A DNA stretch of 64,000 bases, taken from positions 2,927,614-2,991,613 of the forward strand of contig NZ_AP018290.1 in assembly GCF_002368415.1 (NCBI RefSeq), written 5' to 3'. A model generated the notes under the pieces. It was given only the letters and a program-made list of their open reading frames with translations. It did not search any database and was not told the DNA's origin. The position numbers were made by a program, and so were the translations under genes. Within the stretch, counting starts at the first letter, position 1, and each line of letters opens with the position of its first letter. Below, one piece after another: positions 20,232 to 64,000 of this stretch. This DNA is from Calothrix sp. NIES-4105. Its GTDB lineage: Bacteria; Cyanobacteriota; Cyanobacteriia; Cyanobacteriales; Nostocaceae.

Positions 20232-20257
20232 ATAATTGAATCTGTGAGGAAAATACT

Positions 20258-21478
20258 ATGTTGAGATTACCTGACTTTATGTCGATTGACACAACGCACT
20301 TATGGCTAAATATTTCGCGAGAAGAACAAGAAAAAACATGGCAACTAACTAAGCGCTATTCTAATCCGACTGCTTGTTACAATGCTTATTTAAATCGGAT
20401 TTGTTTATATCAGTTTTTAAACTGGTTTCAAGATTGGTTAAGCGAAGAATATAACGATAGCGCTTCCGTTTTTCCTTGTGAGCAAAGTCTTGCGAATATT
20501 TGGGAAGTTGTAAATGGTGCAGCTATTCAATTTGGTGACACTCGATTAGTATTAATTCCCACAGAAACTCTAGACTTAGACGTTTTGTGCGTACCTCAAG
20601 AATGGGTAGATATTAAAAGATGGGCAGCAGATTACTACGTTGGAGTACAAATAAATTTAGATGGTGATGACGATTGTTGGATGCGAGTATGTGGTTTTAC
20701 GACGCACCGTCAGCTTAAAAATCAAGGTGTTTATGACCAAGATTGCCGTACTTACTCTTTACCACAAGAAGCATTAGCTGACAATATTATCTCTTTGTTT
20801 GCGACATTAGAATTGAATTCTCAAGTCGAAGTACCTTCAGAAGTTAACTTATCTGAAGCTGAAGCAACAAATTTGATACATATTTTAGGTTCCGCATCAG
20901 TTTATACTCCAAGATTGTTTGATATACCGTTTACAAAATGGGCAGCGTTAATTTCTAATGAACAGTGGCGCCAACAACTTTACAATCAGCGTAATGGTAT
21001 AGTTAAAGCTGCGTCTTCATTAAAACAATCTTCATCAATCAATCTGAATCGATGGTTTGAAAAGTGTTTTGAAGAAGGTTGGCAGTCTCTTGATGCACTT
21101 ATTAATACAAAAGCATTAAACTTAGCGATTGAGTGTAGAAGTTCCTGCAGTCAAGAACTTACACAAAAAGGCGCCAAGTTAATTGACTTAGGAATGCAAA
21201 TCAATGGAAAATCTGTAGCTCTACTACTTGCTATTTCTAATGAAGCAGAAGGAAAAACAGGAGTTATTGTACAAGTTCATCCTACTGGTAATAATGGCTA
21301 CCTACCACAGAATCTAAAAATGTCGCTTTTAGAATCTGGTAACGTTTTACAAGAAATACAATCTCGTAGTCGGGATTGCTATATTCAGTTAAATCGTTTT
21401 AAAGTATTACCTGGTGCTAATTTTAGTATAAGATTAGTCTTAGGCGAATTTAGTATCACCGAAGATTTTGTGATTTAA
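20258..21478 (+). CDS. DUF1822 family protein, 406 aa
   Basis: Recognised by the DUF1822 layout: a helical N terminus (YSNPTACYNAYLNRICLYQFL), then the beta-rich segment GDTRLVLIPTETLDLDVLCVPQEWVD and the core YYVGVQINLDGDDDCWMRVCGFTTH. The C-terminal domain (about 290-406; IDLGMQINGKSVALLLAIS, then GVIVQVHPTG) resembles the Ig-like half of the family. Soluble, function unknown. It lies 26 bp after the sigma-like gene and 31 bp before the CHAT-CHASE2 gene, with GAGGAA before the start. The fixed neighbourhood across cyanobacteria suggests that it links the sigma-like factor and the CHAT sensor. Confidence 0.85.
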   Translation: MLRLPDFMSIDTTHLWLNISREEQEKTWQLTKRYSNPTACYNAYLNRICLYQFLNWFQDWLSEEYNDSASVFPCEQSLANIWEVVNGAAIQFGDTRLVLIPTETLDLDVLCVPQEWVDIKRWAADYYVGVQINLDGDDDCWMRVCGFTTHRQLKNQGVYDQDCRTYSLPQEALADNIISLFATLELNSQVEVPSEVNLSEAEATNLIHILGSASVYTPRLFDIPFTKWAALISNEQWRQQLYNQRNGIVKAASSLKQSSSINLNRWFEKCFEEGWQSLDALINTKALNLAIECRSSCSQELTQKGAKLIDLGMQINGKSVALLLAISNEAEGKTGVIVQVHPTGNNGYLPQNLKMSLLESGNVLQEIQSRSRDCYIQLNRFKVLPGANFSIRLVLGEFSITEDFVI

Positions 21479-46802: not shown

Positions 46803-49800
46803 TCACTTGTCCATTGGCGCCTGACAATCGAATGATGAATCTACTTTATTGAGTGTCGTTGTGGGAGCTTTTGCTATAAGCGTCACTTCACCCTTGTTAT
46901 TAATTATCCACCCCTGCGCTTCTACAATTTGAGTAGAGCGTGAGGAATTATTCGCCGAGTTCCCCCTATCTCTTTTTGCCTCTGTTGGGTTTGGTACACT
47001 AGTAAGGCGCCAATCTTCCCACATTGCATCACTATTAAGTGTGTTGTTAGGAGAGGGGGGTAAACCACCACGTCCGGTATAAGTGAAACTACTGTTTTTA
47101 TCAGTCTTCGCGCAGATGTTATTGTCCACTAAACGCGCGACATCCACTACATCTATTGTTAAGGGAACTAATCCTTTACTAGGGTCAACATCCGGGTTAT
47201 TAATTTGCACTGTACCACTTAAGTCAGGAGTTTTCCCTGTGGCAGTAATATCACTTTGTAGAGAAGTTTCTTTCCTGGGTTGAATACCAAAGATACCAGC
47301 ACTATTGTTAATGGTGACATTCCCGCCACGAGAGTCTTGAGAATTAGCACTAATATCGCTATTTTCCTTTTCGACAGCAATGATGAAACCATTTTTAGCA
47401 TCAATGGTAATATTACCACCAGCAATATTGTCTCCACTAGCGTTAGTCGTGATACTACTACCACGACGCAGTAATAACAAAGGTGAATTGAGAAAAATAT
47501 TTCCCCCTCCACCTGTGGTGTTAGCGCTAAAGCTTGCCTCGTTATCTAAAAGGATAGAATTAGATGTAGCTTTTATGGTGCCTGCATTTCCTGACCCTTG
47601 ACTGTTCCCAGTTACTTCAGCATTATCTCGGATAGTCAACGAGCCACTAGTGATATTAATGTCTCCTCCTTTACCTGTGGAGCCTTTGAAGGAGTTAGCA
47701 AATACACCACTGGCAGCTCCTGTTTCGGTAAAATTGTTAGCAATCGATGATAATCGGAAGGAAGTACGAACTGGATCTGTGCGGATACGTTCTTCATTCG
47801 CCTGAACTTGGGCAATGCGAGTGTTGTATTTCTGGTCAATACCAGAAATAATCACCCGATCTTTTGCATTAATCTGGATATTACCTGCTTGTCCGTTACC
47901 TGTTGTTGTTGTAACCAGTTGTCCACCGTTCATTGCCTCAAAATATCTGGTATTCACCGTAATATTGCCACCCTGCCCATCACCTCGGCTGCGAGCGCTC
48001 AAACCCGCTGAGTCTGCAATTTGGAATTTTTCAGTGTTAATAATGATGTTGCCAGCATTAAAAGAACCATCGGTGCTTGTAAATAATCCGCTAGCTAATC
48101 CACTAATCGGACTACTACCTGAGATATCAACAACATTAGTAGTAATATTGATATTTCCTGCATCACCTTCTCCCTGAGTACTGGCTTTAATCAAAGCACC
48201 GTCTTTTAGCACTAAAGAATTAGCTTTAATTGTCAGGTTTCCACCAGGACCTTTTCCCCCTGGCAGCAGTCCTAATGTAATTCTCGTCGATTCTCCAGTA
48301 GGAGCAGTAAGAGCTTCAGTCTTGCCTCCAATAAGCGAGATGGAACCATCGACTATTAAATTGATGTTTCCTCCCTTTAATGCTGTTCCGCCTATGTCTA
48401 AATCCGCTCTCAAAGCAGCATTACTCGTCATCGAGAACTCTCCTGCTTGAATGTTGATGTTGCCCGAATTGCCCTGCCCTTGGGTGTTGACCGCTATTTG
48501 ACTAGTTCCTGCCGCAGAAAACGACCCAGTTTTAATTGTGATGTTGCCTGCGTTGCCTACCGAGTTATTTAGAGCTTGAGCATAAACCCCGGCTCCATTA
48601 TCAAGAGAGACAGAGTTGGCTGTGATATCAATATTACCCTCAACCCCTTCGTCCCTCGCTAGTGGTTGCAAGCTGGCAGACAGTTGAGCGCCATCAGTTA
48701 AAGACAACGAACCTGCGGAGATATTAATGTTTCCCCTATTACCAGTCGCCCCTATACCTACATCGCTGAAAATTGCACTGGGATATATTCCATCCTTATT
48801 AGTATTAGTGCCTTCAATCTTTAGCGCACCTGTAACATTAACGTTGACATTTCCTGCATTTCCTCTTCCTGCTGGCTTACCATTAGAGGCTTCACGCACT
48901 AAGGTTAAGATTTGGGCGCCATCTTTTAGGGATAGTGAAGCTGCGTTAATTTCAACCTTGCCTCCATTAGCAACTGCTCCTGATTCCACAGTGCTGAAGA
49001 TGATTCCGTTGACAAGAGACACAGAGTCGCTTGCTTTCACAAACACACTGCCTGCATCCCCTTGTCCAAAAGTACTAGCACTTAGTTTAGCACCATCAGT
49101 TAAGGACAGTGAGCCAGTGACAATATTAATGTCTCCTCCTTTACTTGAACCATAAGTAGTGGTGCTGATGTAGTCGTCAACCTGAACTTCTCCATTTTTA
49201 CTAACCAGGGTAATATCTCCACCGCGAGCTAGTTTGTCTGACAAGCTATTATTTGAGATAATATTACGTGTCCTAATCTTATTTAAGGCTTGAAGCTGAA
49301 TATTAGCAGTATTCCCATTTTTGGAGTCAGTGTATAAAGTTCCTTTGGTTGTATTAATTTCTCCATTCGTGCTACTAAGTTGAATGCTGCCACTATTTCC
49401 TTGTTCGGCACTAGCATCTAATAAAGCGGTTTGAATATTATCTAGGGCTGTAAAAACAATTGTTCCTGCATTCCCAGTTCCATTGGAACCTTCGCGAATT
49501 TGGGATGTGACATCTCCCGACGTTGTATCAATAGTGGATGCGTTACTGGTAAGGATGATGTTCCCGCCGTTGCCAATATCCCCTGCTTCTGAGATGATGC
49601 GACCTGTTGTAATATTGTTTAAGGCAGAGAGAAAAATGGCACCACTATTCCGACTTTTAGAATCCGTCGCTAAATCTCCTCTAGTGGTATTAATCGCTCC
49701 ATTAGTGGCAGTAAGTTGAATGTTGCCACCATTTCCTTGTTCGGCACTAGCATTTAATAAAGCGGTTTGAATATTATCTAGGGCTGTAAAAACAATTTTT

Positions 49801-52283
49801 CCTGCACGCCCAGTTCCATTTGAACCTTCGCGAATTTGGGATGTGACATCTCCCGACGTTGTATCGATAGTGGATGCGTTACTGGTAAGGGTAATGTCCC
49901 CACTGTTGCCTGTATCACCTGCTTCTGAGTTGATACCTTTAGTGATAATGGCGCCATTGGCAGTAACCGTTATTGCCCCACCATTACCTCCACCGCCAAC
50001 AGGAGAGAATGACAAAGATAACAAATCGCCAATGGTGATGCTGCCGTTATTGGCTTCAAGGTTAATTATGCCCCCCGAACCCGCATTCCCAGAACGAGAG
50101 TCCGAGACAGAGTATAAATTGCCTGCGGTAATGCTACCGTTGTTAGTTTTTAGGCTAATGGCGCCACCCGAAGCCACATTATCAGATGTTGAGTACGAGT
50201 AAGAGTTCAAATTGCCCGTTGTAATATTGTTAAAGGCAGAAAGGGAAATGGCGCCACCATTCCCATTTGTCGAGTCAGTATATAAAGTTCCTTTGCTTGT
50301 ATCAATTTTTCCATTAGTGCTAGTGAGTTGAATGTTGCCACCATCTCCTTTTTCGGCACCAGCATTTAACGAAGCGGTTTGAATATTATCTAGGGCTGTA
50401 AAAAGAATTATTCCTGCACGCCCAGTTCCATTGGAACCAGAGCGAATTTGGGATGTGACATCTCCCGACGTTGTATCAATAGTAGATGCATTACTGCTAA
50501 GGGTGATGTCCCCACTGTTGCCTGTATCCCCTGCTTCTGAGTTCATACCGCCGGTGATAATCGCGCCATTGGCTGTAACCTTTATTGCCCCACCATTTCC
50601 CCCACCGCCAACGGGAGAGAATGAGAAAGATAACAAATCGCCAATGGTAATGCTGTCATTGTTGGCTTCAAGGTTAATTATGCCCCCCGAACCCGCATTC
50701 CCAGAACGAGAGTTTGAGAAGGAGTACAAATTGCCAGTGGTGATCCTACCGTTATTAGCTTGTAAACTAATGGCGCCCCCCAACCCCGTACTGCCCGATG
50801 TAGAGAACGAGTAAGACTCTAAATTGCCAGTAGTAATGTTGCCATTGTTAGCTTTTAGGCTAATGGCGCCTCCATTGAGAGCGTCATTACTAGTATTTAG
50901 CGTTTGTGCATTAGTGGTAATTGCTCCAGCACTGTTAATATCAATCCCACCCCCATTAGTTGTAATTGCTTTACTACTCACATCCCCAGATGCTGTTGTT
51001 AAACTAACTATCCCCCCAACACCATTAAATGGTTCTAAGCGTACATTTCCACCTAAAGTAATTCCCTCTGGCACCGGAACACTCTTCAACGGAGGAACTG
51101 AGCCATAATTAACACCACCATAAGCCAGAGTATTTTGCCCAGAACGCATTATTAATGCCGTACTGTTGCTTAAAGTTGCAGTATCTTGTCCAGCAGGCGC
51201 GCTAGTATCCGGTCTAATAATATTTATATCACCTTGAAAGCGAATATTACCCTTGCTTTCAACTAATAACGATGCTCCTGTATAGTTAGCTGCAACATCC
51301 ACATCACTATTACTGCTAATTATTGGGTCATATCTACTCACAATGTTTGCTAGCCCTGATACACTATGAATCGTAAAACTCCCACCACTTTTAAAACGAG
51401 CATCAAGAGAAATGATTCCATCACTAATTAAGCTCAAATTACCCCCACTCACAAAAGGCGCCTGCGTTGGGTGAAAGGGCGCTAAAATATCAATTCCTTG
51501 ATTTCCTGCAATTGTCAGATTAGCACCTGAAGTAGCTAAAAATGGAGTCGTTACACTGTCGCGCACCCGAATTGTATCAGCAGCAAGCAATGTTAAATCT
51601 CCACCTGCTACTAGTTTTCCCTGCAAATCAAGTTTGTTAGCGACTAGTGTTAGGTCTTGCTGGGATGTTAAATTTCCAGTATTAGTAATAGTCGCCCCTG
51701 GCTGACTTGCTCCATACTGCAATCCTGGCGTAATACTTACCGTTAGTAATGGTGGTGGAAGAGGATTAATAGCACTAAAGGTACTGCCATTAGCAAACTT
51801 GAAACTGTTTGCCGTAGTTGCAGAAAACGAGCCACCAATGTCTAAGCGGGCATTTGGTCCAAAAATAATCCCATTGGGATTGAGCAGGAATAAGTTTGCT
51901 GTGCCTATGCTGCGAATTAAGCCATCAATATTAGAAATTGACTTACCCGTTACTCGTGTCAGAATGTTTTGAATATCCAGTGCATTATTGAAGAAAGCAG
52001 TACTACCATTGGGAACAGAAAACTCCTCAAAGCTGTGGAAGAGATTAACGCCTCTTGTGGTTCCACCCTCTATAATTCTGGTGTTGTTTTCTAATTTGAC
52101 ATTAGAATTATTCGGCAGAGTGGCATCCGGCGTAATTTGGGCGATTGCACAGTTAGCAAACAATATTATTGCAGTAGCTAACTGATAAGTTAGGGCTTGC
52201 GCTAGAAGCTTGGCGCCGTGCGAGTATGCGCTCGCAATTCCTATACCTTTGAGGCGCCCCAAATTTATATTTTTGCTCAACAT
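46803..52283 (-). CDS. Two-partner-secretion exoprotein, 1826 aa (tandem paralogue 1)
   Basis: A long signal region (about 48 residues, ending NCAIAQ), then the TPS domain (ITPDATLPNNSNVKLENNTR, NLFHSFEEFSVPNGS, NLFLLNPNGIIFG). The first 450 residues and the last 220 closely match the next adhesin upstream (52532-57391), while the middles differ; this one has repeats such as STIDTTSGDVTSQIR and SEAGDTGNSGDITL, then a GNINI-type beta-helix. C terminus SSFTYTGRGGLPPSPNNT, MWEDWRL, QIVEAQGWIINNKGEV. GAGGGATGC precedes the start, the same leader as in the paralogue. Its stop is about 70 bp before trpC. Confidence 0.9.
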   Translation of the reverse strand: MLSKNINLGRLKGIGIASAYSHGAKLLAQALTYQLATAIILFANCAIAQITPDATLPNNSNVKLENNTRIIEGGTTRGVNLFHSFEEFSVPNGSTAFFNNALDIQNILTRVTGKSISNIDGLIRSIGTANLFLLNPNGIIFGPNARLDIGGSFSATTANSFKFANGSTFSAINPLPPPLLTVSITPGLQYGASQPGATITNTGNLTSQQDLTLVANKLDLQGKLVAGGDLTLLAADTIRVRDSVTTPFLATSGANLTIAGNQGIDILAPFHPTQAPFVSGGNLSLISDGIISLDARFKSGGSFTIHSVSGLANIVSRYDPIISSNSDVDVAANYTGASLLVESKGNIRFQGDINIIRPDTSAPAGQDTATLSNSTALIMRSGQNTLAYGGVNYGSVPPLKSVPVPEGITLGGNVRLEPFNGVGGIVSLTTASGDVSSKAITTNGGGIDINSAGAITTNAQTLNTSNDALNGGAISLKANNGNITTGNLESYSFSTSGSTGLGGAISLQANNGRITTGNLYSFSNSRSGNAGSGGIINLEANNDSITIGDLLSFSFSPVGGGGNGGAIKVTANGAIITGGMNSEAGDTGNSGDITLSSNASTIDTTSGDVTSQIRSGSNGTGRAGIILFTALDNIQTASLNAGAEKGDGGNIQLTSTNGKIDTSKGTLYTDSTNGNGGAISLSAFNNITTGNLNSYSYSTSDNVASGGAISLKTNNGSITAGNLYSVSDSRSGNAGSGGIINLEANNGSITIGDLLSLSFSPVGGGGNGGAITVTANGAIITKGINSEAGDTGNSGDITLTSNASTIDTTSGDVTSQIREGSNGTGRAGKIVFTALDNIQTALLNASAEQGNGGNIQLTATNGAINTTRGDLATDSKSRNSGAIFLSALNNITTGRIISEAGDIGNGGNIILTSNASTIDTTSGDVTSQIREGSNGTGNAGTIVFTALDNIQTALLDASAEQGNSGSIQLSSTNGEINTTKGTLYTDSKNGNTANIQLQALNKIRTRNIISNNSLSDKLARGGDITLVSKNGEVQVDDYISTTTYGSSKGGDINIVTGSLSLTDGAKLSASTFGQGDAGSVFVKASDSVSLVNGIIFSTVESGAVANGGKVEINAASLSLKDGAQILTLVREASNGKPAGRGNAGNVNVNVTGALKIEGTNTNKDGIYPSAIFSDVGIGATGNRGNINISAGSLSLTDGAQLSASLQPLARDEGVEGNIDITANSVSLDNGAGVYAQALNNSVGNAGNITIKTGSFSAAGTSQIAVNTQGQGNSGNINIQAGEFSMTSNAALRADLDIGGTALKGGNINLIVDGSISLIGGKTEALTAPTGESTRITLGLLPGGKGPGGNLTIKANSLVLKDGALIKASTQGEGDAGNINITTNVVDISGSSPISGLASGLFTSTDGSFNAGNIIINTEKFQIADSAGLSARSRGDGQGGNITVNTRYFEAMNGGQLVTTTTGNGQAGNIQINAKDRVIISGIDQKYNTRIAQVQANEERIRTDPVRTSFRLSSIANNFTETGAASGVFANSFKGSTGKGGDINITSGSLTIRDNAEVTGNSQGSGNAGTIKATSNSILLDNEASFSANTTGGGGNIFLNSPLLLLRRGSSITTNASGDNIAGGNITIDAKNGFIIAVEKENSDISANSQDSRGGNVTINNSAGIFGIQPRKETSLQSDITATGKTPDLSGTVQINNPDVDPSKGLVPLTIDVVDVARLVDNNICAKTDKNSSFTYTGRGGLPPSPNNTLNSDAMWEDWRLTSVPNPTEAKRDRGNSANNSSRSTQIVEAQGWIINNKGEVTLIAKAPTTTLNKVDSSFDCQAPMDK

Positions 52284-52531: not shown

Positions 52532-55500
52532 TTACTTGACAATTGGCGCCTGACATTCTAATGATGAATCTACTTTATTGAGTGCCGTTGTGGGAGCATA
52601 AGCTATAAGTGTCACTTCGCCCTTGTTATTAATTATCCACCCCTGCGCTTCTACAATTTGAGTAGAGCGTGAGGAATTATTCTGCGAGTTCCCCCTCCCT
52701 CTATCTCTTTTTGCCTCTGTTGGGTTTGGTACAGTAGTAAGGCGCCAATCTTCCCACATCGCATTACTATTAAGTGTGTTGTTAGGAGAGGGGGGTAAAC
52801 CACCACGTCCGGTATAAGTGAAACTACTATTAGCTGTTCTCGCACAGATGTTATCGTCTACTAAACGCGCGACATCCACTACATCTGTTGTTAGGGGAAC
52901 TAATCCTTTATCAGGATCAACATCGGGGTTATTAATTTGCACTGTGCCAGGAGTTTTCCCTGTGGCAGTAATATCACTTTGTAAAGAAGTTTCTTTCCTA
53001 GGTTGAATACCAAAGATACCAGCACTATTGTTAATGGTGACATTCCCGCCACGAGAGTCTTGAGAATTAGCACTAATATCGCTATTTTCTTTTTCGACAG
53101 CAATGATGAAACCATTTTTAGCATCAATCGTAATATTACCACCAGCAATATTGTTTCCAGTAGCGTTAGTCGTGATACTACTACCACGACGCAGTAATAA
53201 CAAAGGTGAATTGAGAAAAATATTTCCCTCTCCTCCAGTAGTGTCCGCGTTAATTTTGGCGCCGTTATTCAACTCGATAGAGTTAGCATTTACAATTAAA
53301 TTACCAGCGCTTCCAGATTTTGTACTGCTGACACTGACTTTTGCATTGTTTTCTACTCTCAACTTTCCTGTACTTAGAGTTAAATTACCACCTGTGCCAT
53401 TTCCAGAAGTTTCTGCAGAAACAATCGAACCATTGCCAGTCAGAGTAACTGACTCAGGAGCTTTGATTGTTATCGCTCCTCCTTTACCACTACTACTGGT
53501 GGATGCGGATATTTGCGCTCCTTCTTGGAAATTAACCGTTAAACTTTGTCCATTGCTACGGGGTTGAATAGTTAAATTCCCTGCATTCCCGGCGCCTGAA
53601 GTTGAGGTGAGAATCTGTCCACCTTTGTCAACACTCAAAGTATTAGCGCTGACTGTAATATCGCCTCCTGTTGAGTTAGTTACAGTTGTCGCATCTAAAA
53701 CAGCTCCATCAGTTACCTCTAAGTTGTTAGCTGTAACGCTGATATTACCGCCTTGTCCAATACGACTGCTAGATGTTTCTCCTGATAGCTCATTAGTGCT
53801 ACCACTAGCAGAGCGTAAAGCGCTATCTTTTCCAGAAATACTGACTGTATCAGCATCTACCGCTATCTCTCCTGCAAATCCATTTCCTAAAGTCTGGGTT
53901 TGTACAATTCCAGAATTGGTTATGGAAACTCTAGGAGTACTAAGTTCAACTCTACCACTGTTACCAATTGCTCCTGGAGCTACCCCGCTTAATATTGAGC
54001 CATTGTCGATTGTTATTGAATCACGCGTGTTAATGGAAACGTTACCTGCATTACTATTTTTTCCAAAGCTGGTTGTAGCGATGGCAGCACCATTATTAAC
54101 GATTAGTCTTCCGGTATTAATTGTCAAGTTGCCTGCACTACCTGTAGAGTTGGTAGTTGTTTGGGAAAACACACCAGAAGGAAATACAGTTCCAAAGGGT
54201 GCGGAAGTAGTTCCATTTGGAATATAACCGCCAAGGTATGTATCTGGTGAAAGTCCTATGATGTTACTAGAATCTAGTGGAACAAAAATACCTTGGGGTG
54301 TGTTGGTTGTTTTACCACCTAGCTCTATTGTACCATTAGTAGTTAAAGTGATGTTTCCTCCTGCTCCTGTGCCGTGAGTGGAAGCGGATATTTGTCCACC
54401 GTTAGTGAGGGAAATTGAAGTCGCGCTGATTTGAATATCTCCGGCTTTGCCAGAACCAAATATATCGCTCGATATTGCACCATTATTTAAAACAAAAGGA
54501 GCATTGCTGTTAATAGTGATGTTTCCTGAACCTTTTGCTCCAGAGGAGGTTATTGAAGTTAGATTGATGGTATCTGTGGCGCTCAATGTTACCGCTCCCC
54601 CTGTACCTGAAGCTCCACCTGCTGCTCCAGCTCGAGGGGGCGCGGCGTAGGAGAAAGAATCCAGAGACAGTGTATTAATATTAGCTCCAGCGCTCAATGT
54701 TATCGCTCCCCCTGTACCTGCTATTCCCACACCTGCTCCACCTGTGTAGGCGATGGATGTGGAATTTAGTTTTTTTGTATCAATATTAGCTCCAGATCTC
54801 AGTGTTATTGCTCCCCCTGTACCTGCTTCACTTCTCTGGGAGAGCGAGTAAGAGTCTAGGGATTGTGTCTTAATATTAGCTCCAGCGCTCAGTGTTATCG
54901 CTCCCCCTGTACTTGCGTCTAAACGGGAACCATTGGAGGAGTTCAGAGATTCTGTATTAATATTAGCTCCAGCGTTCAGTGTTATCGCTCCCCCTGTACC
55001 TGTACCTGCAAAACCGTAGGTAGAAGAGTCTAGAGTTAGTGTATTAATATCAGCTCCAGCGTTCAGTGTTATCGTTCCTCCTGTACCTGCTGTACCTGTC
55101 TGGATAGAAAGGGAGGAAGATTTCAGGTCTTGTGTATTAATGTTGCCATTAACGGCACTAATGGTAATGGCGCCGCCATTCCCACCTTCTGCGGCGTTGA
55201 AGCCTGAGTTAGATGCTAAAGAACCAGTTGTAATGTCTCCCAAGCCAGCAGTTAGGCGAATCTCACCCCCATTTTTGTTGATACCGATACTTTGTTCAGA
55301 AGAAGAAGAGTTCAAATTTGCTGTGGTAATGCTAGCCAAAGCTTTTAGACTAATGGCGCCACCATTCCCATTTTTGGAGTTAGTATATAAAGTTCCTTTA
55401 GTTGTATCAATTTTTCCATTAGTGCTAGTGAGTTGAATGTTGCCACCATCTCCTTTTTCGGCACTAGCATCTAATGAAGCGGTTTGAATATTATCTAGGG

Positions 55501-57391
55501 CTGTAAAAACAATTTTTCCTGCACGCCCAGTTCCGTTTGAACCTTCGCGAATTTGGGATGTGACAGTGAGCAACGTTGTATCAATAGTGGATGCATTACT
55601 TGTAAGGGTGATGTCCCCACTGTTACCTGTATCCCCTGCTTCTGAGTTGATACCTTTAGTGATAATGGCGCCATCGGCAGTAACCTTTATTGCCCCACCA
55701 TTTCTTCCACCGCCAACAGGAGAGAATGAGAAAGAGAACAAATTGCCAATGGTAATACTGCCATTGTTGGCTTCAAGGTTTATTATGCCCCCTGAACCTG
55801 CATTGCCAGAACGAGAGTTTGAGAGGGAGTACAAATCGCCAGTGGTAATGCTACCGTTGTTAGCTTGTAGACTAATGGCGCCACCCAAACTCGTGCTACC
55901 CGATGTAGAGAACGAGTAAGACTCCAAATCGCCAGTAGTAATGTTGCCGTTGTTAGCTTTTAAGCTAATTTCACCACCATTGAGAGCGCCATTACTAGTG
56001 TTTAGCGTTTGTCCATTCGTAGTGATTGCTTTTGCACTGTTAATATCAATGGCGCCTCCATTAGTTGTAATTTCTTTAGTACTTACGTCCCCGGATGCTG
56101 TTGTTAAGCTAACTACTCCCCCAACACCATTAAATGGCTCTAGGCGTACATTTCCACCTAAAGTAATTCCTTCCGGCACCAGAACACCAGTTAACCCAGG
56201 TAAATCGCCATAATTAATACCACCATTAGCCAGAGTATTCTGCCCAGAACGCATTATTAATGCCGTACTGTTGCTTAAAGTTGCAGTATCTTGTCCAGCA
56301 GGTACGGTAGTATCCGGTGTTGTGATGTTTATATCACCTTGAAAGCGAATATTACCCTTGCTTTCAACTAACAACGATGCTCCTGTATAGTTAGCTGCAA
56401 CATCCACATCGCCATTACTGCTAATTATTGGGTCATACAAGCTGACAAAGTTTGCCAGTCCCCCTGATACACTATGAATCGAAAAATTCCTACCACTTGC
56501 AAAACGAGCATCAAGAGAAATGATTCCATCACTGATTAAGCTCAAATTGCCCCCACTCACAAAAGCCGCCTGCGTTGGGTGAAAGAGCGCTAAAATATCA
56601 ATTCCTTGATTTCCTGCAATTGTCAGATTAGTACCTGAAGTAGCTAAAAATGGAGTCGTCACACTGTCGCGCACCCGAATTGTATCAGCAGCTTGCAATG
56701 TTAAGTCTCTGCCTGCTACTAGCTGTCCCTGCAAATCAAGTTTATTAGCGACTAGTGTTAGGTCTTGCTGGGATGTTAAATTTCCGGTGTTAGTAATAGT
56801 CGCACCTGCCTGACTTGCTCCATACTGCAACCCTGGTGTAATACTTACCGTCAGTAGTGGTGGTGCTTGGGGATTAATAGCACTAAAGGTACTGCCATCA
56901 GCAAACTTGAAACTGTTTGCCGTAGTTGCAGAAAACGAGCCGCCAATGTCTAAGCGGGCATTTTGTCCAAAAATAATACCATTAGGATTGAGCAGGAATA
57001 AGTTTGCTGTGCCTATGCTGCGAATTAAGCCATCAATATTAGAAATTGACTTACCCGTTACTCGTGTCAGAATGTTCTGAATATCCAGTGCATTATTGAA
57101 GAAAGCAGCACTGCCATTGGGAACAGAAAATTCGGTAAAACTATGGAATAAATTACTACCTGCGCGCGTTCCACCCTCAATAATTCTGGTGTTGTTTTCT
57201 AATTTGACATTAGAATTATTCGGGAGAGTGCTATCCGGTATAATTTGGGCTATGGCGCCATTAGCAGATAATATTATTGCACTCGCAAACTGACAAATCA
57301 GGGCTTGCGCTAGAAGCTTGGCGCCGCGCGTGTACGCATTTGCAATTCTTATACCTTTGAAGCACCCAAGATGTATATTTTTGTCCAACAT
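52532..57391 (-). CDS. Two-partner-secretion exoprotein, 1619 aa (tandem paralogue 2)
   Basis: Signal region ending NGAIAQ, then the TPS domain (IIPDSTLPNNSNVKLENN, NLFHSFTEFSVPNGS, NLFLLNPNGIIFG). Specific to this copy is a central stretch of short repeats (GAGANINTLSLDS, TGGAITLSAGANI, about residues 780-960) and a later NGAAIATTSFGKNSNAGNV region. The N and C termini match paralogue 1. Ribosome-binding leader GAGAGGGATGCAATG. About 250 bp separate it from paralogue 1, and it diverges from the halogenase cluster across a 1.2-kb gap. Surface adhesin or fibre. Confidence 0.9.
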   Translation of the reverse strand: MLDKNIHLGCFKGIRIANAYTRGAKLLAQALICQFASAIILSANGAIAQIIPDSTLPNNSNVKLENNTRIIEGGTRAGSNLFHSFTEFSVPNGSAAFFNNALDIQNILTRVTGKSISNIDGLIRSIGTANLFLLNPNGIIFGQNARLDIGGSFSATTANSFKFADGSTFSAINPQAPPLLTVSITPGLQYGASQAGATITNTGNLTSQQDLTLVANKLDLQGQLVAGRDLTLQAADTIRVRDSVTTPFLATSGTNLTIAGNQGIDILALFHPTQAAFVSGGNLSLISDGIISLDARFASGRNFSIHSVSGGLANFVSLYDPIISSNGDVDVAANYTGASLLVESKGNIRFQGDINITTPDTTVPAGQDTATLSNSTALIMRSGQNTLANGGINYGDLPGLTGVLVPEGITLGGNVRLEPFNGVGGVVSLTTASGDVSTKEITTNGGAIDINSAKAITTNGQTLNTSNGALNGGEISLKANNGNITTGDLESYSFSTSGSTSLGGAISLQANNGSITTGDLYSLSNSRSGNAGSGGIINLEANNGSITIGNLFSFSFSPVGGGRNGGAIKVTADGAIITKGINSEAGDTGNSGDITLTSNASTIDTTLLTVTSQIREGSNGTGRAGKIVFTALDNIQTASLDASAEKGDGGNIQLTSTNGKIDTTKGTLYTNSKNGNGGAISLKALASITTANLNSSSSEQSIGINKNGGEIRLTAGLGDITTGSLASNSGFNAAEGGNGGAITISAVNGNINTQDLKSSSLSIQTGTAGTGGTITLNAGADINTLTLDSSTYGFAGTGTGGAITLNAGANINTESLNSSNGSRLDASTGGAITLSAGANIKTQSLDSYSLSQRSEAGTGGAITLRSGANIDTKKLNSTSIAYTGGAGVGIAGTGGAITLSAGANINTLSLDSFSYAAPPRAGAAGGASGTGGAVTLSATDTINLTSITSSGAKGSGNITINSNAPFVLNNGAISSDIFGSGKAGDIQISATSISLTNGGQISASTHGTGAGGNITLTTNGTIELGGKTTNTPQGIFVPLDSSNIIGLSPDTYLGGYIPNGTTSAPFGTVFPSGVFSQTTTNSTGSAGNLTINTGRLIVNNGAAIATTSFGKNSNAGNVSINTRDSITIDNGSILSGVAPGAIGNSGRVELSTPRVSITNSGIVQTQTLGNGFAGEIAVDADTVSISGKDSALRSASGSTNELSGETSSSRIGQGGNISVTANNLEVTDGAVLDATTVTNSTGGDITVSANTLSVDKGGQILTSTSGAGNAGNLTIQPRSNGQSLTVNFQEGAQISASTSSSGKGGAITIKAPESVTLTGNGSIVSAETSGNGTGGNLTLSTGKLRVENNAKVSVSSTKSGSAGNLIVNANSIELNNGAKINADTTGGEGNIFLNSPLLLLRRGSSITTNATGNNIAGGNITIDAKNGFIIAVEKENSDISANSQDSRGGNVTINNSAGIFGIQPRKETSLQSDITATGKTPGTVQINNPDVDPDKGLVPLTTDVVDVARLVDDNICARTANSSFTYTGRGGLPPSPNNTLNSNAMWEDWRLTTVPNPTEAKRDRGRGNSQNNSSRSTQIVEAQGWIINNKGEVTLIAYAPTTALNKVDSSLECQAPIVK

Positions 57392-58623: not shown

Positions 58624-59922
58624 ATGGCTCGTTTTCTAATAAGTACGATTCCTTCTATCGGACATGTAAAACCAATCTTACCAATTGCTCGTAAACTAGT
58701 AGAAAGAGAACATGAAGTATGGTGGTATACTGGCAATGGGTTCAAATATGATGTTGAAAAAACAGGCGCCGTTTACGTCCCTATACGTACAGGCTTTGAT
58801 ATTTCAGAACCAAAAACTCTTCCGAAGCATTTGATACAAGGAAACTCTTCTTTAAAAGGCTTAGAATGGTTTAAGTTTATTCTTAAGCACCTTTTTATAG
58901 ATTCTGCTGTATCGCAGTTAAAAGATTTATCTAATATTTTGCAAGAGTTTCCCGCAGATGCTCATTTATGCGATTTACTTTTTCTAGGAGCAGCTTGGAT
59001 TCATGAAAAAGGAGGACCTCCTTGGGCTGCAGTAGGTACAACTGGCTTACCTTTTAGTAGTTCTGAAACCGCTCCTTTTGGATTAGGGATACAACCAAAC
59101 GCTTCAGTGTTTGGAAATTTTCGGAATCGTTGTTTAAATTGGATATCTCAGGAAGTAGCCTTAAAAGATGTAACTTTATACTTAAACAAAGTTCGAGCTG
59201 GCGTAGCGTTATCATCTGTTGATAAAAGTTTTTTTGACGCTGCTTTATCACCTTTTCTTCATTTACAAGCAACAGTTCCAAGCATTGAATACTCGCGTAG
59301 TGACTTACCATCACAAGTGCATTTTGTTGGTACACTTTTGTCACCTAATGACTCTTTTACTACTCCTAATTGGTGGAACGATTTAAGAAGCGGTAAGCAA
59401 GTCATTTATGTTGCACAGGAAGAAACATCGGTCAAAGGAGATGATATAGTTTTGGCTACTATCAAAGCATTTGCCGATACAGATGTGTTAGTTGTTGTCA
59501 AAATGGATCAAAAGCAGATTAATAGTCTTCATTTGAATTCTATTCCTGCAAATGTCAAATTTGACAATTCTAACTTGAGTCACAAAATAATGCCTTACGT
59601 TAATGTCATGGTAACAAATGGTGGCTACGATGATGTATATACGGCTTTGGCTTATGGTGTACCGTTGGTAACTATAGGTCAAACTGAAGATAAACCGGAA
59701 CTTTGCGCTAGAATGGAATGGGCTGGAGTAAGTATGAATTTAAAAACTAAACGATTGACCTTAAGGCAGATTAAAGATGCTGTAAACAAGGTTTTAGAAT
59801 CACCTCAATATCAACAGAAAGCTCAATTTTTTAAAGATGAAATTGCTTGTCATGATGCAGCAACTACAAGCGTTGAACTACTTGAAGAATTAGCATCAAC
59901 AAAACAACCAATTTTGAAGTGA
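58624..59922 (+). CDS. UDP-glycosyltransferase (GT1/MGT family), 432 aa
   Basis: GT-B fold. The N-terminal acceptor domain opens ARFLISTIPSIGHVKPIL with the likely catalytic base H14. The C-terminal donor domain has VIYVAQEE (usual VxVSxGS strand) and the motif region TNGGYDDVYTALAYGVPLV followed by QTEDKPELCARMEWAG, equivalent to the sugar-nucleotide-binding signature of macrolide and indolocarbazole glycosyltransferases. I choose the ATG at 58624; an upstream TTG would add 12 residues that do not fit the family. First gene of the plus-strand cluster ahead of the tryptophan halogenase, so a bisindole or chlorotryptophan product is a plausible acceptor. The sugar is unknown. Confidence 0.85.
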   Translation: MARFLISTIPSIGHVKPILPIARKLVEREHEVWWYTGNGFKYDVEKTGAVYVPIRTGFDISEPKTLPKHLIQGNSSLKGLEWFKFILKHLFIDSAVSQLKDLSNILQEFPADAHLCDLLFLGAAWIHEKGGPPWAAVGTTGLPFSSSETAPFGLGIQPNASVFGNFRNRCLNWISQEVALKDVTLYLNKVRAGVALSSVDKSFFDAALSPFLHLQATVPSIEYSRSDLPSQVHFVGTLLSPNDSFTTPNWWNDLRSGKQVIYVAQEETSVKGDDIVLATIKAFADTDVLVVVKMDQKQINSLHLNSIPANVKFDNSNLSHKIMPYVNVMVTNGGYDDVYTALAYGVPLVTIGQTEDKPELCARMEWAGVSMNLKTKRLTLRQIKDAVNKVLESPQYQQKAQFFKDEIACHDAATTSVELLEELASTKQPILK

Positions 59923-60126
59923 TATTTAAGTAAGTTAGAAGTAAATGATGAGGAGGCTTCTACTACGAATGTATCAACATTAAGCTTTTGAATGCAACTA
60001 TTGCAAAGGAGAATGAATGAAGACTTAAGTTTACATTCAGCACAATCACTCGATTTCTCAAAGTCAAATCCTTGACTATCAACCTCGATTATCACAAATT
60101 GAACATTAACAATTAGGAGACAAGTC

Positions 60127-61737
60127 ATGAACTTCGACACAAAAATTCAGAGTATAGCTATTGTTGGGGGTGGTTCAACTGGTTGGATGGCTGCTGCCTA
60201 CCTCGCAAAAGCACTGCAAGGGAGTGTTAAGATCACACTAATTGAGTCGGATAGAATTCCTACCGTAGGTGTAGGAGAGGCAACAGTACCAAGCATACAA
60301 CCAGATTTGTTCGGTTTCTTAGGAATTCCCGAATCAGAGTGGATGCCAGAATGTAAGGCAACGTTCAAAATTGGTATTAAATACGTGAATTGGGCTTATC
60401 AACCATCTGTAACTGAGAACAATACATTCTATCACATTTTTGGAGAAGCTAAAGATTGTGATGGTATTCCACTCACTCACTATTGGCTTAAAAAACGGCT
60501 CGAAGGCTATCAAAATCCAATGGCATCTAGCTGCTATTCAAGTCCAGCCCTATGCCAAAATTATAAATCTCCGAAATATTTAAATGGAGATATGGCAGCT
60601 AATTATGCATACCACTTTGATGCTAGTTTAGTTGCTAAATTCCTAACTCGTTGGTCTACTGAACGGGGGGTAGTGCATGTAATAGATGATGTCAGCGATG
60701 TTATTTTAGATGATACTGGCGCCATCAGTTATTTAAAAACGCAAAAAGGCGATACTTATACAGCAGATTTATATTTGGATTGTTCTGGTTTCCGAGGTTT
60801 ACTGATTAATCAGGCACTTAAAGAACCGTTCTTATCCTATTCAGATAATTTGTTGTGTGACAGTGCCGTTGCAACAGCAATTCCAACGGACGATAATGAC
60901 GATAATTTTAGACCCTATACAACAGCAACAGCTTTGAGTTCAGGATGGGTATGGGAAATTCCACTATATGGAAGAGTTGGGACAGGTTATGTCTATTCTC
61001 AAAAATTCCTAGACCCAGAAGCAGCAGAACAAGAGTTTAGAGACTTCCACGGTTTAGCCAAAGATTTTCCAGTCAAGCACTTGAAGATGAGAGTGGGTAG
61101 AACTGAGCGAGCTTGGGTTAAAAACTGCGTTAGTCTTGGACTTGCTAGCGGATTTATCGAACCTCTGGAATCAACAGGTATTTACTTTATTTACTCTGCA
61201 TTAAAGCAATTAGTGAGATATTTCCCCGACAAGACTATGAGTCCAGCTTTGAGGGACAAGTTTAACGAAAGAATTGCCTACATGGTTGATGATGTTCGAG
61301 ATTTCATTGTATTGCACTACTGCACAACTTCTAGAGAGGATACCCCATTCTGGAAAGCTAATAAGTACGACCTCAAGATTCCTGAATCGTTACAAGAGCT
61401 TTTAGAAGTATACCTCGCTGGCGCCCCTATTAATATCCCTTACTCAGATGATGATGGATATAACCGAATCTTTGACGCTGGTTTCGATAGATTCTGGACT
61501 AACAGTAATTATATGGCTATTCTAGCTGGAGTCAATTACTTGCCCAATTCAGTTTTACCTTCTCTCAACCATAAACCACAATCATTGGAAAAAGCGGAGA
61601 AAATATTTAAGAACGTGGAAAATACCACCAAAAATCTCTTGCAAGAATTACCTTCTCATTATGAATATATTAGGAGTTTGAATGTAAAAGCACAACCATC
61701 TCGAATCAAGTTACCTCTTGAAGCTGTTCTGCACTAA
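60127..61737 (+). CDS. FADH2-dependent tryptophan halogenase (RebH/PrnA type), 536 aa
   Basis: Uses FADH2, O2 and chloride or bromide to halogenate free tryptophan. FAD loop GGGSTG (14-19), catalytic lysine K81 (ATFKIGIKY), halogenase motif W273-V-W-E-I-P278, and the active-site E347-S348-T349 (EPLESTGIYF). Length and the order of conserved phrases (DCSGFRGLLINQAL, GTGYVYSQKF, FWTNSNYMAILAGV) follow RebH, a 7-halogenase, closely from memory, more than PyrH-type 5-halogenases. Regiochemistry remains inference. AGGAG 9 nt before the ATG. No flavin reductase is seen nearby. It stands between the glycosyltransferase and the amino-acid oxidase. Confidence 0.93.
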   Translation: MNFDTKIQSIAIVGGGSTGWMAAAYLAKALQGSVKITLIESDRIPTVGVGEATVPSIQPDLFGFLGIPESEWMPECKATFKIGIKYVNWAYQPSVTENNTFYHIFGEAKDCDGIPLTHYWLKKRLEGYQNPMASSCYSSPALCQNYKSPKYLNGDMAANYAYHFDASLVAKFLTRWSTERGVVHVIDDVSDVILDDTGAISYLKTQKGDTYTADLYLDCSGFRGLLINQALKEPFLSYSDNLLCDSAVATAIPTDDNDDNFRPYTTATALSSGWVWEIPLYGRVGTGYVYSQKFLDPEAAEQEFRDFHGLAKDFPVKHLKMRVGRTERAWVKNCVSLGLASGFIEPLESTGIYFIYSALKQLVRYFPDKTMSPALRDKFNERIAYMVDDVRDFIVLHYCTTSREDTPFWKANKYDLKIPESLQELLEVYLAGAPINIPYSDDDGYNRIFDAGFDRFWTNSNYMAILAGVNYLPNSVLPSLNHKPQSLEKAEKIFKNVENTTKNLLQELPSHYEYIRSLNVKAQPSRIKLPLEAVLH

Positions 61738-61759
61738 ATAGTGGAAGCAGTACTAATTG

Positions 61760-62031
61760 ATCCCCCCTAACCCCCCTTGATAAGCTACCGTGTACACACA
61801 AGTCTTTCAAAGTTGCTGTTGTACGAGATAACCCTTGACTTTCCTTTCTTTCTTTCTTTCTTTGTGACCTTTGTGACCTTTGTGGTTCATTAAAGGAATA
61901 AACCACAAAGACACAAAGAACACAAAGGGGGAATATAAGGAAAGTTAAAAGATGTGTGTACACGGTAGCCTTGATAAGGGGGAAAAGAGAAGGGATTCTT
62001 AGCCCCCCGCGTGGAAGGGGGTTGGGGGGAT
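61760..62031. repeat. C/G-tract palindromic repeat interrupted by an insertion
   Basis: Outer ends ATCCCCCC (61760-61767) and GGGGGGAT (62024-62031) match the element at 5012-5093. It is split by the small insertion at 61785-61968. Confidence 0.65.
61785..61968. mobile_element. 184-bp MITE with 16-bp terminal inverted repeats and 10-bp target duplication
   Basis: Termini CTACCGTGTACACACA (61785-61800) and its exact complement (61953-61968), flanked on both sides by CCTTGATAAG (61775-61784 and 61969-61978), a clean target-site duplication. The interior is another inverted repeat of the CACAAAG family. It has no coding capacity, so it must have moved in trans. It interrupts an older C/G-tract repeat between the halogenase and oxidase genes. 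Confidence 0.85.
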
Positions 62032-62087
62032 TAAAATCATTAACCAAGTAGTATTAAGACATTATCTAAATCATATAAAAGGTAATT

Positions 62088-63566
62088 ATGGAAAAAATTT
62101 GGAATAGAGACTTTAAGAAAGTCAGGTCATATCTTTCAGATATATACGCTCTTAATCAAAATAAAATGCCTAAGAATATAACTATTTTAGGTGCTGGCAT
62201 TTCAGGTTTAGTAGCTGCTCATGAATTAAAAAAGCTGAATCATAATGTTCGAGTTATAGAAGCTAGTAACAGAATTGGAGGTAGAATATGGACTTATAGG
62301 TTTGGAGATAAAAATGGAATGCACTATGGAGAATTAGGCGCCATGCGTATTCCTTTCAATCATGAGTTTACCCATTACTACGTACATCAAATGGGGCTTC
62401 AGCATAAACTTAGAAAATTTATTACTGTTCTTCAAAATAGTGAGTGTTTAATCGATGTTAATAATAAAGTCTGTCGTTTAAAAGATGCAATAGATGATAT
62501 TTATCCCAGATATGAACTTTCCAAAAACAGAAACTTTCGGTCTAAATATACTGAACCTTTTGCAGCTGGTCTTAAAACAGTAGTAGATGTAATGTCTCCA
62601 CGAGAGATTCGCGAAGTTTTTGCAGCAGATTTGAATAATCACTTGTTAGATACGATTGATACCCTTTTTTATGAAAAAAATATTCAGTTAAAAGAGGATG
62701 ATTTATCTCTTAGTAATATACTACCAATGCTTTCTAAATTAAAAGGTAATTTTAAAAATGTCTTAAATACTTATATTAAACATATTATTCTTGAATCTGG
62801 TAGTGAATTGTATCAAATCGTAGGAGGTATGGATCAACTCCCTCATAATATAGCAAAAGATTTGCAAGAAGAGATTAGATTGAATGCTGAGGTTACGGGA
62901 ATAAAGCTTGAAGATAATCGGGTTAAAATAACGATTAATGACAACGAGCAAATATATAGCGATATCGTACTTTGTACAATACCATTTAGCGTATTGCGTG
63001 AGATGAAATTAGAAGGATTTTCTGAAGAAAAACTAGATGTTATTAATAACCTGACTTATATGGGTGCTAGTAAGGTACTGTTTTATTGCAAAGATAGATT
63101 TTGGGAAAATGATAAATATCAGATTAAAGAAGGAGCTTCTGTAAGCGATCAGTTTATTCGTCAAACTTATTATCCTATTACATTAGACGGCGCATCAAAT
63201 AATAAAGAAAATCCAGGTGTTTTACTTGCAAGTTATGTAATTGGTGAAGATTCAGATTATGTTGCTAGTTTAAATTCTAATGAACAAATCAATATGATTA
63301 AAAAAAGCGTTGGTCGATTTCATCCAGAAATTGAGGATAAAGATATGATTCAAGATATTGCTGTTGTTTCGTGGGAAAAGCAGAAATGGACTCGCGGATG
63401 TAGTGGTGTGATGTGGATTGGTAGAAAGAAATATAATCTCGAAGCTGTTATTAAGTCAGAAAAACAAATGTTTTTCGCTGGTGAACACTGCTCTCCAGAT
63501 AATGCCTGGATAGAAGGAGCAATCACATCTGCTTTAAGCCAAGTTGCAAAAATTATTCAGCTTTAA
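62088..63566 (+). CDS. FAD-dependent L-amino-acid (probably tryptophan) oxidase, RebO/StaO/VioA-type role, 492 aa
   Basis: Flavin monoamine-oxidase fold: GAGISG (35-40), E58 for the FAD ribose, RIGGRI (62-67), ELGAMRIP with R87 as likely carboxylate-binding Arg, and the C-terminal FAD block FFAGEHCSPDNAWIEGAITSA. Closer to L-amino-acid oxidases such as RebO and StaO than to Chromobacterium VioA, as far as I recall. Expected reaction: tryptophan or chlorotryptophan to the indole-3-pyruvate imine. AAAAGG lies 7 nt before the ATG; an N-terminal stretch of 26 residues precedes the core. It is 38 bp before the VioE-like gene, so they are co-transcribed. Confidence 0.85.
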   Translation: MEKIWNRDFKKVRSYLSDIYALNQNKMPKNITILGAGISGLVAAHELKKLNHNVRVIEASNRIGGRIWTYRFGDKNGMHYGELGAMRIPFNHEFTHYYVHQMGLQHKLRKFITVLQNSECLIDVNNKVCRLKDAIDDIYPRYELSKNRNFRSKYTEPFAAGLKTVVDVMSPREIREVFAADLNNHLLDTIDTLFYEKNIQLKEDDLSLSNILPMLSKLKGNFKNVLNTYIKHIILESGSELYQIVGGMDQLPHNIAKDLQEEIRLNAEVTGIKLEDNRVKITINDNEQIYSDIVLCTIPFSVLREMKLEGFSEEKLDVINNLTYMGASKVLFYCKDRFWENDKYQIKEGASVSDQFIRQTYYPITLDGASNNKENPGVLLASYVIGEDSDYVASLNSNEQINMIKKSVGRFHPEIEDKDMIQDIAVVSWEKQKWTRGCSGVMWIGRKKYNLEAVIKSEKQMFFAGEHCSPDNAWIEGAITSALSQVAKIIQL

Positions 63567-63604
63567 CATTTATCGTCTATTGATGAAACTCAGGAGTGAA
63601 ATAA

Positions 63605-64000
63605 ATGAAAACTAACAAAAGTCAACCACCCTTACTACCAAAACAATGGTTTGCATCATACGTCACTTTTTGGGCGCCAATGAAAAAGGAAAATTTTATT
63701 TCCTCTGGGTGCGTATGGTTTGACTACGAATTAGAAGTTTATAGGATAGATGGGATTTTTAATCCTTGGGATGTTGAAAAAACTGGTCATCAATTATGGA
63801 TGTCAGAAATCACTTCTTACGGACAAGGAAAAAGTAAAATTTTCAAGCTTCCCTACCATGTTAAAAACCTATCTAACAAAAATGAATCTTTTGAATATGA
63901 AGTTGGTAACTTAACAAATGATGTAGTCGAAAGGCATAATTCGATTGTACCAAGAGATATTTTGATTTCTGGTAATGCAAAATTTCAAGGGAATGAAAAA
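63605..64000 (+). CDS. vioE: VioE-like violacein biosynthesis enzyme, N-terminal 132 aa (cut by window end)
   Basis: VioE converts the short-lived IPA-imine dimer made by VioA and VioB into prodeoxyviolacein-type skeletons through a 1,2-indole shift. Residues 8-68 align without a gap to Chromobacterium violaceum VioE as I remember it: PPLLP, WFDYE, RIDG, FNPW, TG, LWMSE are shared. Proposed active-site residues fall in register: Y17 to Y19, E66 to E68, and S19 to T21 (conservative). A second block PRDIL near residue 119 also fits. AGGAG lies 8-9 nt before the ATG. The last about 60 residues lie outside the window. Confidence 0.85.
   Translation, partial: MKTNKSQPPLLPKQWFASYVTFWAPMKKENFISSGCVWFDYELEVYRIDGIFNPWDVEKTGHQLWMSEITSYGQGKSKIFKLPYHVKNLSNKNESFEYEVGNLTNDVVERHNSIVPRDILISGNAKFQGNEK

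Follow-up and report, generated by a model that had tools for sequence, protein, structure and literature searches.

The end of a 64,000-nucleotide stretch of the genome of the filamentous cyanobacterium Calothrix sp. NIES-4105 (contig NZ_AP018290.1, positions 2,927,614 to 2,991,613; termed the window) opens into a run of 16 plus-strand genes that is likely to constitute a complete, probably working violacein-type cluster, with a halogenated, possibly glycosylated violacein-type pigment as its predicted product. The run extends from 58624 to 80584 (window numbering, continued beyond 64000), has its first four genes inside the window, and provides a candidate gene for every pathway step. DNA beyond 64000 was taken from the same assembly (GCF_002368415.1; 12.04 Mb, 8 contigs), which is identical to the window where the two overlap. 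A first-pass annotation of the window had described a glycosyltransferase, a halogenase, an oxidase, and VioE, and all four are present on the plus strand where it placed them. As it had stated, the window stops inside vioE, after 132 of 195 codons counted from 63605. Its interpretation, a halogenated violacein-like bisindole pathway, is supported: it had been staked on a VioB-type gene within about 10 kb downstream and on the VioE fold, and it survived the examination of both.

VioE and a two-piece VioB

The full VioE protein (63605-64192; 63605-64000 within the window) matches the Pfam model PF18234 with 169 bits (cut-off 25; E 1.6e-49) and the sequence of the VioE crystal structure 2zf3 with E 2.5e-30, far beyond chance. 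The fold was assessed on a structural model of the relative from Mojavia pulchra (66% identical; mean predicted local distance difference test score 85), whose 13 best matches in the PDB are all VioE chains (2zf3, 2zf4, 3bmz), the best with E 3.8e-19 and a template modeling score of 0.85. Among the five residues that we take to form the VioE pocket, four are kept (Y17, N51, E66, and R172) and S19 is replaced by threonine.

The predicted VioB-type gene takes the form of two overlapping genes that start within the end of vioE: vioB-N (64134-66299; TIGR04492 E 1.8e-136) and vioB-C (66274-67524; E 2.1e-113). Their best stretches cover profile positions 1-456 and 598-987 of 1003, respectively, and together the halves match the TIGR04492 domains end to end. 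We rejected an assembly frameshift as the origin of the split, because three genomes share the break point and have open frames on either side of it, and because the second part carries its own AAGGAG site here. A PDB search returned no relatives of the C-part. The genome holds a single VioE and a single VioB C-part, both of the cluster type that we call A.

Cyanobacterial relatives and mosaic origin

VioE was searched with the Pfam model in 386 sampled genomes of the phylum (one match, this genome), with a protein query in 217 genomes of the family (nine with VioE), and in a named genome collection (56 loci). On the phylum and family counts, a cluster widespread in the phylum was rejected. 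A search for VioE on plasmids gave no match. Trees were computed from 29 of 58 VioE, 23 of 52 VioC, and 22 of 51 VioD extracted sequences, with L033, L035, L036, and L044 removed as duplicates.

The VioE loci of cyanobacteria fall into three arrangements. Type A, a rare one found in Mojavia pulchra JT2-VF2 (L015/L016) and Nostoc sp. XA010 (L013/L014), comprises a halogenase, a glycosyltransferase, split VioB, VioE, oxidase 1, TrpE-G, and 3-deoxy-D-arabino-heptulosonate 7-phosphate (DAHP) synthase, together with a cytochrome P450 (P450), methyltransferases, and an acyl-CoA-dehydrogenase-like flavoprotein. These clusters are undescribed as far as our literature search reached. Type B, found in Anabaena azotica FACHB-119, Nostoc flagelliforme FACHB-838, and a third genome, G538, comprises VioC, VioD, a different VioE, an oxidase, a major facilitator superfamily (MFS) pump, and DevBCA-type genes. 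Its VioB is unsplit in A. azotica and N. flagelliforme, and in G538 the 40 kb examined around VioE contain no VioB. At three Calothrix loci, VioE occurs with an oxidase, and one of the three also has VioB.

The Calothrix cluster resembles type A in its halogenase (79-81%), oxidase 1 (70-71%), VioE (66%), split VioB (65-70%), and glycosyltransferase, but differs in having VioC and VioD, whereas type A carries the P450, methyltransferases, and flavoprotein. Conversely, it resembles type B in VioC (76-78%), VioD (76-82%), the MFS pump (67-71%), and the DevBCA-type exporter genes; in two of the three type B clusters, some of these exporter genes are incomplete or lie at the end of a contig. It differs from type B in VioE (~41%) and in VioB (36-47% where present, and unsplit there), and the type B stretches examined are devoid of halogenase and glycosyltransferase. 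TrpE-G and DAHP synthase are no type A marker, since the A. azotica type B cluster has both.

Phylogenies mirror this division. The VioE tree groups the protein of the window with the two type A proteins (100/100). Oxidase 1 joins the Mojavia and Nostoc XA010 oxidases (100/100), while VioC and VioD lie inside the type B cyanobacterial clades (100/99 each). Oxidase 2 joins not the type B oxidases but those of VioB loci that have no VioE (5 rows, 100/100; L144 and L146 are partial sequences). Split VioB clades with type A, and type B VioB falls among the VioE-less cyanobacterial VioB, in a quick tree for which the program warned that long branches meet. By sequence, the cluster is a mosaic of at least three sources: VioE, split VioB, oxidase 1, halogenase, and glycosyltransferase of type A; VioC and VioD of type B, whose clusters have no halogenase; and oxidase 2 of the VioE-less clusters.

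Further features were observed in these relatives. VioD and VioE of G538 form one open frame of 571 amino acids (L017/L018, joined coordinates 19374-21089), a natural fusion. In two type B clusters, the neighbors of the vio genes include one gene for a type III polyketide synthase (79% alike) and one for a cytochrome-b5-domain protein (73%) (N. flagelliforme L019, 4476-7500; G538 L017/L018, 23459-26382), suggesting an acylated or otherwise extended violacein there. VioB/RebD-like dimer synthases without VioE are common in the family: at E 8e-113 or better, 41 of 217 genomes have a match, which is split in three of them. Ten second VioB loci were examined (L137-L146, in G436, G406, G300, G432, G548, G411, G538, G410, G540, and G412); an oxidase-2-like gene lies near five and a P450 match near six. 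The VioE-less VioB locus of A. azotica also has a flavin adenine dinucleotide (FAD) monooxygenase and trp genes. Such VioE-less loci are probably undescribed indolocarbazole-type clusters.

VioC and VioD appear to be in use

The first-pass annotation had pointed downstream for VioC- and VioD-like monooxygenases, and these are found ~8-9 kb further on: vioC (71996-73285) and vioD (73258-74403), for which VioC and VioD, respectively, are the best family models. Of the columns invariant in all other sequences, VioC keeps 138 of 144 (51 rows) and VioD 96 of 97 (50 rows). Moreover, the nonsynonymous substitution rate (dN) is below the synonymous rate (dS) in every pair with estimable dS; 13 of the 16 cluster genes were tested, all except DevC, DevA, and flavin mononucleotide (FMN) reductase, and dS is saturated in all three oxidase 2 pairs and in one of the two vioB-N pairs. 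VioC and VioD thus appear to be in use, and only the type A VioB and VioE can feed them, because the genome has a single VioE and a single VioB C-part. This dependence argues most strongly for our inference that the violacein precursor is made by type A VioE.

Both oxidases, oxidase 1 (62088-63566; FAD-dependent, PF01593 E 4.2e-57) and oxidase 2 (74803-76350), are of L-amino-acid-oxidase type, and neither is a VioA ortholog. The same holds for the A. azotica cluster with its full VioC and VioD, whose oxidase reaches only 59 bits against the VioA model. Hence, the VioA-type oxidase seems to have been swapped in cyanobacteria, and what is found here looks like a cyanobacterial replacement in a variant that functions like the violacein pathway.

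A PrnA-like halogenase and a glycosyltransferase

The halogenase (60127-61737) belongs to the flavin-dependent tryptophan halogenase family (PF04820 E 1.4e-161), as the first-pass annotation had proposed, but it is nearer to PrnA (639 bits, 52.5% identity) than to RebH (559 bits), with Thal and its variants at 562-569 bits. Since PrnA scores higher, RebH orthology was rejected. In PrnA numbering, Lys79, His101, Phe103, Glu346, Tyr443, Phe454, and Trp455 are kept, among them the catalytic Lys79 and Glu346 (roles in PMC8407142, where the glutamate number is known from the mutant E346D; this and the other papers are cited from excerpts). Tyr444 is replaced by Asn and Glu450 by Gly. Both changes recur in the five nearest relatives, one of them represented by its C-part only, while twelve more distant cyanobacterial halogenases are gapped there. 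In Thal, the residue equivalent to Glu450 (Glu461) contacts the tryptophan amino group, and PrnA mutants at E450 and F454 have an altered substrate scope (PMC12247023).

Free tryptophan, the substrate assumed in the first-pass annotation, is likely but less than certain, because the glutamate that contacts the amino group is replaced by glycine. At the C-terminal positions that distinguish Thal from its RebH5 variants (variants identified via a table in PMC8407142), the halogenase has the Thal-RebH5 letters EST and NSNY instead of ESS and NGSY of Thal. As Thal was modified toward position 7 according to that review, these letters hint at chlorination at C7. At E 1e-60, the halogenase occurs in this genome only among seven genomes of the genus. 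Gly450-subfamily halogenases (66-78%) are also encoded in G410, G540, and G475 (L134, L135, and L136); in G475, the gene is split by an intervening open frame.

The glycosyltransferase (58624-59922) is of the GT1/UGT type, like EryCIII and macrolide glycosyltransferases, with an EryCIII-like C-terminal domain (PF06722 E 1.3e-15) and 10zg as its best PDB relative (E 6.8e-18). It is 60-61% identical to that of both type A clusters. Domain, family, and PDB searches used a frame starting one codon upstream of the ATG. Transfer of a sugar to the bisindole is a possible function.

Proposed pathway

Genes, families, mosaic origin, open frames, and conserved residues are established at the sequence level; the chemistry of each step, the identity and position of the halogen, the sugar, and expression of the cluster are inferred. 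DAHP synthase (77098-78222) and the fused TrpE-G (78260-80584) would raise the tryptophan supply. The SsuE-type FMN reductase (76430-77026) would feed the halogenase, which would chlorinate (or brominate) tryptophan or a closely related derivative, probably at C7. The two oxidases would yield indole-pyruvate imines, two of which the two-piece VioB would couple. VioE would then rearrange the dimer to the protodeoxyviolaceinic-acid skeleton, and oxidation by VioD and VioC would give a violacein-type product, to which the glycosyltransferase may attach a sugar. The three-gene DevB/C/A-type exporter (67539-70714) and the MFS pump (70771-71994) are candidates for export of the product. This order follows the described violacein route, in which an oxidase forms the imine, VioB the dimer, and VioE protodeoxyviolaceinic acid, followed by VioD and VioC, and in which VioE competes with spontaneous chromopyrrolic acid formation (PMC7869524). 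The pathway tolerates chlorine, as Escherichia coli engineered with vio genes and RebH gives 7-chloroviolacein (PMC7179595). The first-pass annotation had predicted a chlorinated, possibly glycosylated deoxyviolacein-type compound. The bisindole and VioE part of that prediction is borne out by the genes beyond 64000, but VioC and VioD are both present and point to a violacein rather than a deoxyviolacein type.

Alternative interpretations

Several observations weigh against a halogenated violacein. Against stricter models, several cluster proteins stay below the cut-offs: VioE reaches 155 of 177 bits for the NCBIfam equivalog TIGR03650, the VioB halves 456 and 380 bits for TIGR04492 (cut-off 1250, set for the unsplit protein), VioC 735 of 760, and VioD 616 of 620 bits, the last two narrowly, with the A. 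azotica homologs exceeding both (768 and 634). For VioA, oxidases 1 and 2 score 41 and 54 bits at a cut-off of 600. Type A VioE is a deep branch that keeps 32 of 39 otherwise invariant columns, and the type A relatives have neither VioC nor VioD. Further, the halogenase has lost Glu450, and no vio gene lies beside the halogenases of G410, G540, and G475 on the short contigs examined.

The divergence of type A VioE, which is separated by ~2.6 changes per column from the remaining 26 rows of the tree, would also fit type A genes that make a halogenated bisindole other than violacein, with VioC and VioD tailoring that skeleton or having no proper substrate. Both type A relatives carry a P450, methyltransferases, and the flavoprotein instead of VioC and VioD, and here VioC and VioD differ in origin from VioE and VioB. 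We nonetheless consider this product unlikely, as VioC and VioD have lost very few of the invariant columns and show dN below dS, and so seem in use, and VioE retains four of its five pocket residues. A search of this genome for the type A flavoprotein returned no match, but it had no positive control and says little. A bolder proposal, which we hold to be doubtful, takes the type A set (deep-branching VioE, two-piece VioB, its own oxidase, and the Gly450 halogenase) as a separate bisindole class that halogenates indole-pyruvate or a later intermediate. Grafted VioC, VioD, and an oxidase 2 of different preference would then yield an asymmetric, glycosylated chloroviolacein that joins a chlorinated indole unit to a plain one, as natural combinatorial biosynthesis from two or three bisindole pathways.

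That the vio genes make plain violacein or its glycoside, with the halogenase silent or acting elsewhere, is quite improbable. The altered substrate-amine site and the three genomes whose close halogenases have no vio neighbor would fit such a product, but the halogenase sits in the same plus-strand run, keeps Lys79 and Glu346, and is found together with split VioB, VioE, and oxidase 1 in each of the three genomes with the type A set. Most remote is a route of the indolocarbazole or tjipanazole type, in which the dimer would pass via chromopyrrolic acid to an indolocarbazole that carries chlorine and a sugar. A likeness to this class is indeed seen in the halogenase, oxidase, dimer synthase, and glycosyltransferase, and tjipanazoles are cyanobacterial. 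However, the presence of VioE, which competes with spontaneous chromopyrrolic acid formation (PMC7869524), and of VioC and VioD speaks against it, and on these grounds an ordinary indolocarbazole cluster was rejected. Moreover, neither a P450 nor a RebC/StaC-type flavoprotein is among the 16 cluster genes, and the P450 matches of the genome all lie elsewhere. A halogenated violacein-type pigment remains the reading that we regard as likely.

Gene order and genomic context

Family models assigned 12 of the 16 cluster genes; DevC, DevA, DAHP synthase, and TrpE-G carry names that we presume from their sequences. From vioE to vioD, adjacent genes overlap or are at most 56 bp apart. A scan for promoter-like (25 against 23.4 expected) and terminator-like sites (6 against 3.6) showed no clear excess. 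The 350-bp gap between the halogenase and oxidase 1 genes contains short tandem repeats with 4- and 9-bp units (61839-61927), and a minus-strand frame of 113 amino acids there looks repeat-derived rather than a gene. Directly upstream of the cluster, two long tandem paralogs of 1826 and 1619 amino acids lie on the minus strand (46803-52283 and 52532-57391), which we take to resemble filamentous-hemagglutinin-type secreted adhesins.

Two congeners, G431 and G436, share blocks with this genome from ~81415, just beyond TrpE-G. In the 20 kb on their cluster side, no blastn match (E 1e-15) above 100 bp to the window or the cluster was found. The cluster is thus missing from that side in both siblings checked, which fits an acquired block. 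Among the seven genomes of the genus, VioE occurs in this one and in Calothrix sp. PCC 7103 (G432), which has a type B-like VioE.

Relation to known systems and significance

As in the vioABCDE operon of Chromobacterium, Janthinobacterium, Pseudoalteromonas, and others, homologs of VioB, VioE, VioC, and VioD occur together, and the same reaction order is expected (PMC7869524). Unlike in that operon, VioB is split and the oxidases are not VioA orthologs. Unlike the Calothrix cluster, none of the 56 named VioE loci has a halogenase and two, both type A, have a glycosyltransferase in flanks of up to 10 kb; the halogenase count can miss distant copies, because the type A halogenase lies ~14 kb from vioE in both relatives.

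Halogenase, oxidase, and dimer synthase are shared with the rebeccamycin and tjipanazole clusters. The rebeccamycin cluster also has a glycosyltransferase, its route goes on through a P450 and then an FAD monooxygenase step, and to our knowledge it does without VioE. The tjipanazole route, a known one to chlorinated bisindoles of cyanobacteria, uses a tryptophan halogenase, a tryptophan oxidase, a chromopyrrolic-acid-synthase-like protein, and then, unlike the cluster described here, a P450 and an FAD monooxygenase, with no VioE in the enzyme list of the excerpt (PMC10300848). The engineered E. coli pathway likewise feeds a violacein pathway through a tryptophan halogenase, but it is man-made, and its excerpt mentions no glycosyltransferase (PMC7179595), whereas the Calothrix combination is natural. 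A full-text literature search, covering titles and abstract openings and mostly outside subscription journals, returned no cyanobacterial violacein cluster and no natural halogenated violacein. While the enzyme classes are known, their combination and mosaic origin appear to be new.

If the proposed pathway holds, its product would be a natural halogenated violacein and would extend a bioactive pigment class; we found halogenated violacein only as engineered 7-chloroviolacein, which has a half-maximal inhibitory concentration of 0.42 uM against malaria parasites (PMC7179595). The cluster would also be a source of three components presumably selected to function together: an alternative VioE, a two-piece VioB, and a halogenase. 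The mosaic amounts to a natural swap experiment, in which VioC and VioD of one cluster type rely on VioB and VioE of another, and it predicts that the violacein core is also made by the two type A clusters, those of Mojavia and Nostoc XA010. Violacein-type chemistry would thereby be placed in cyanobacteria.

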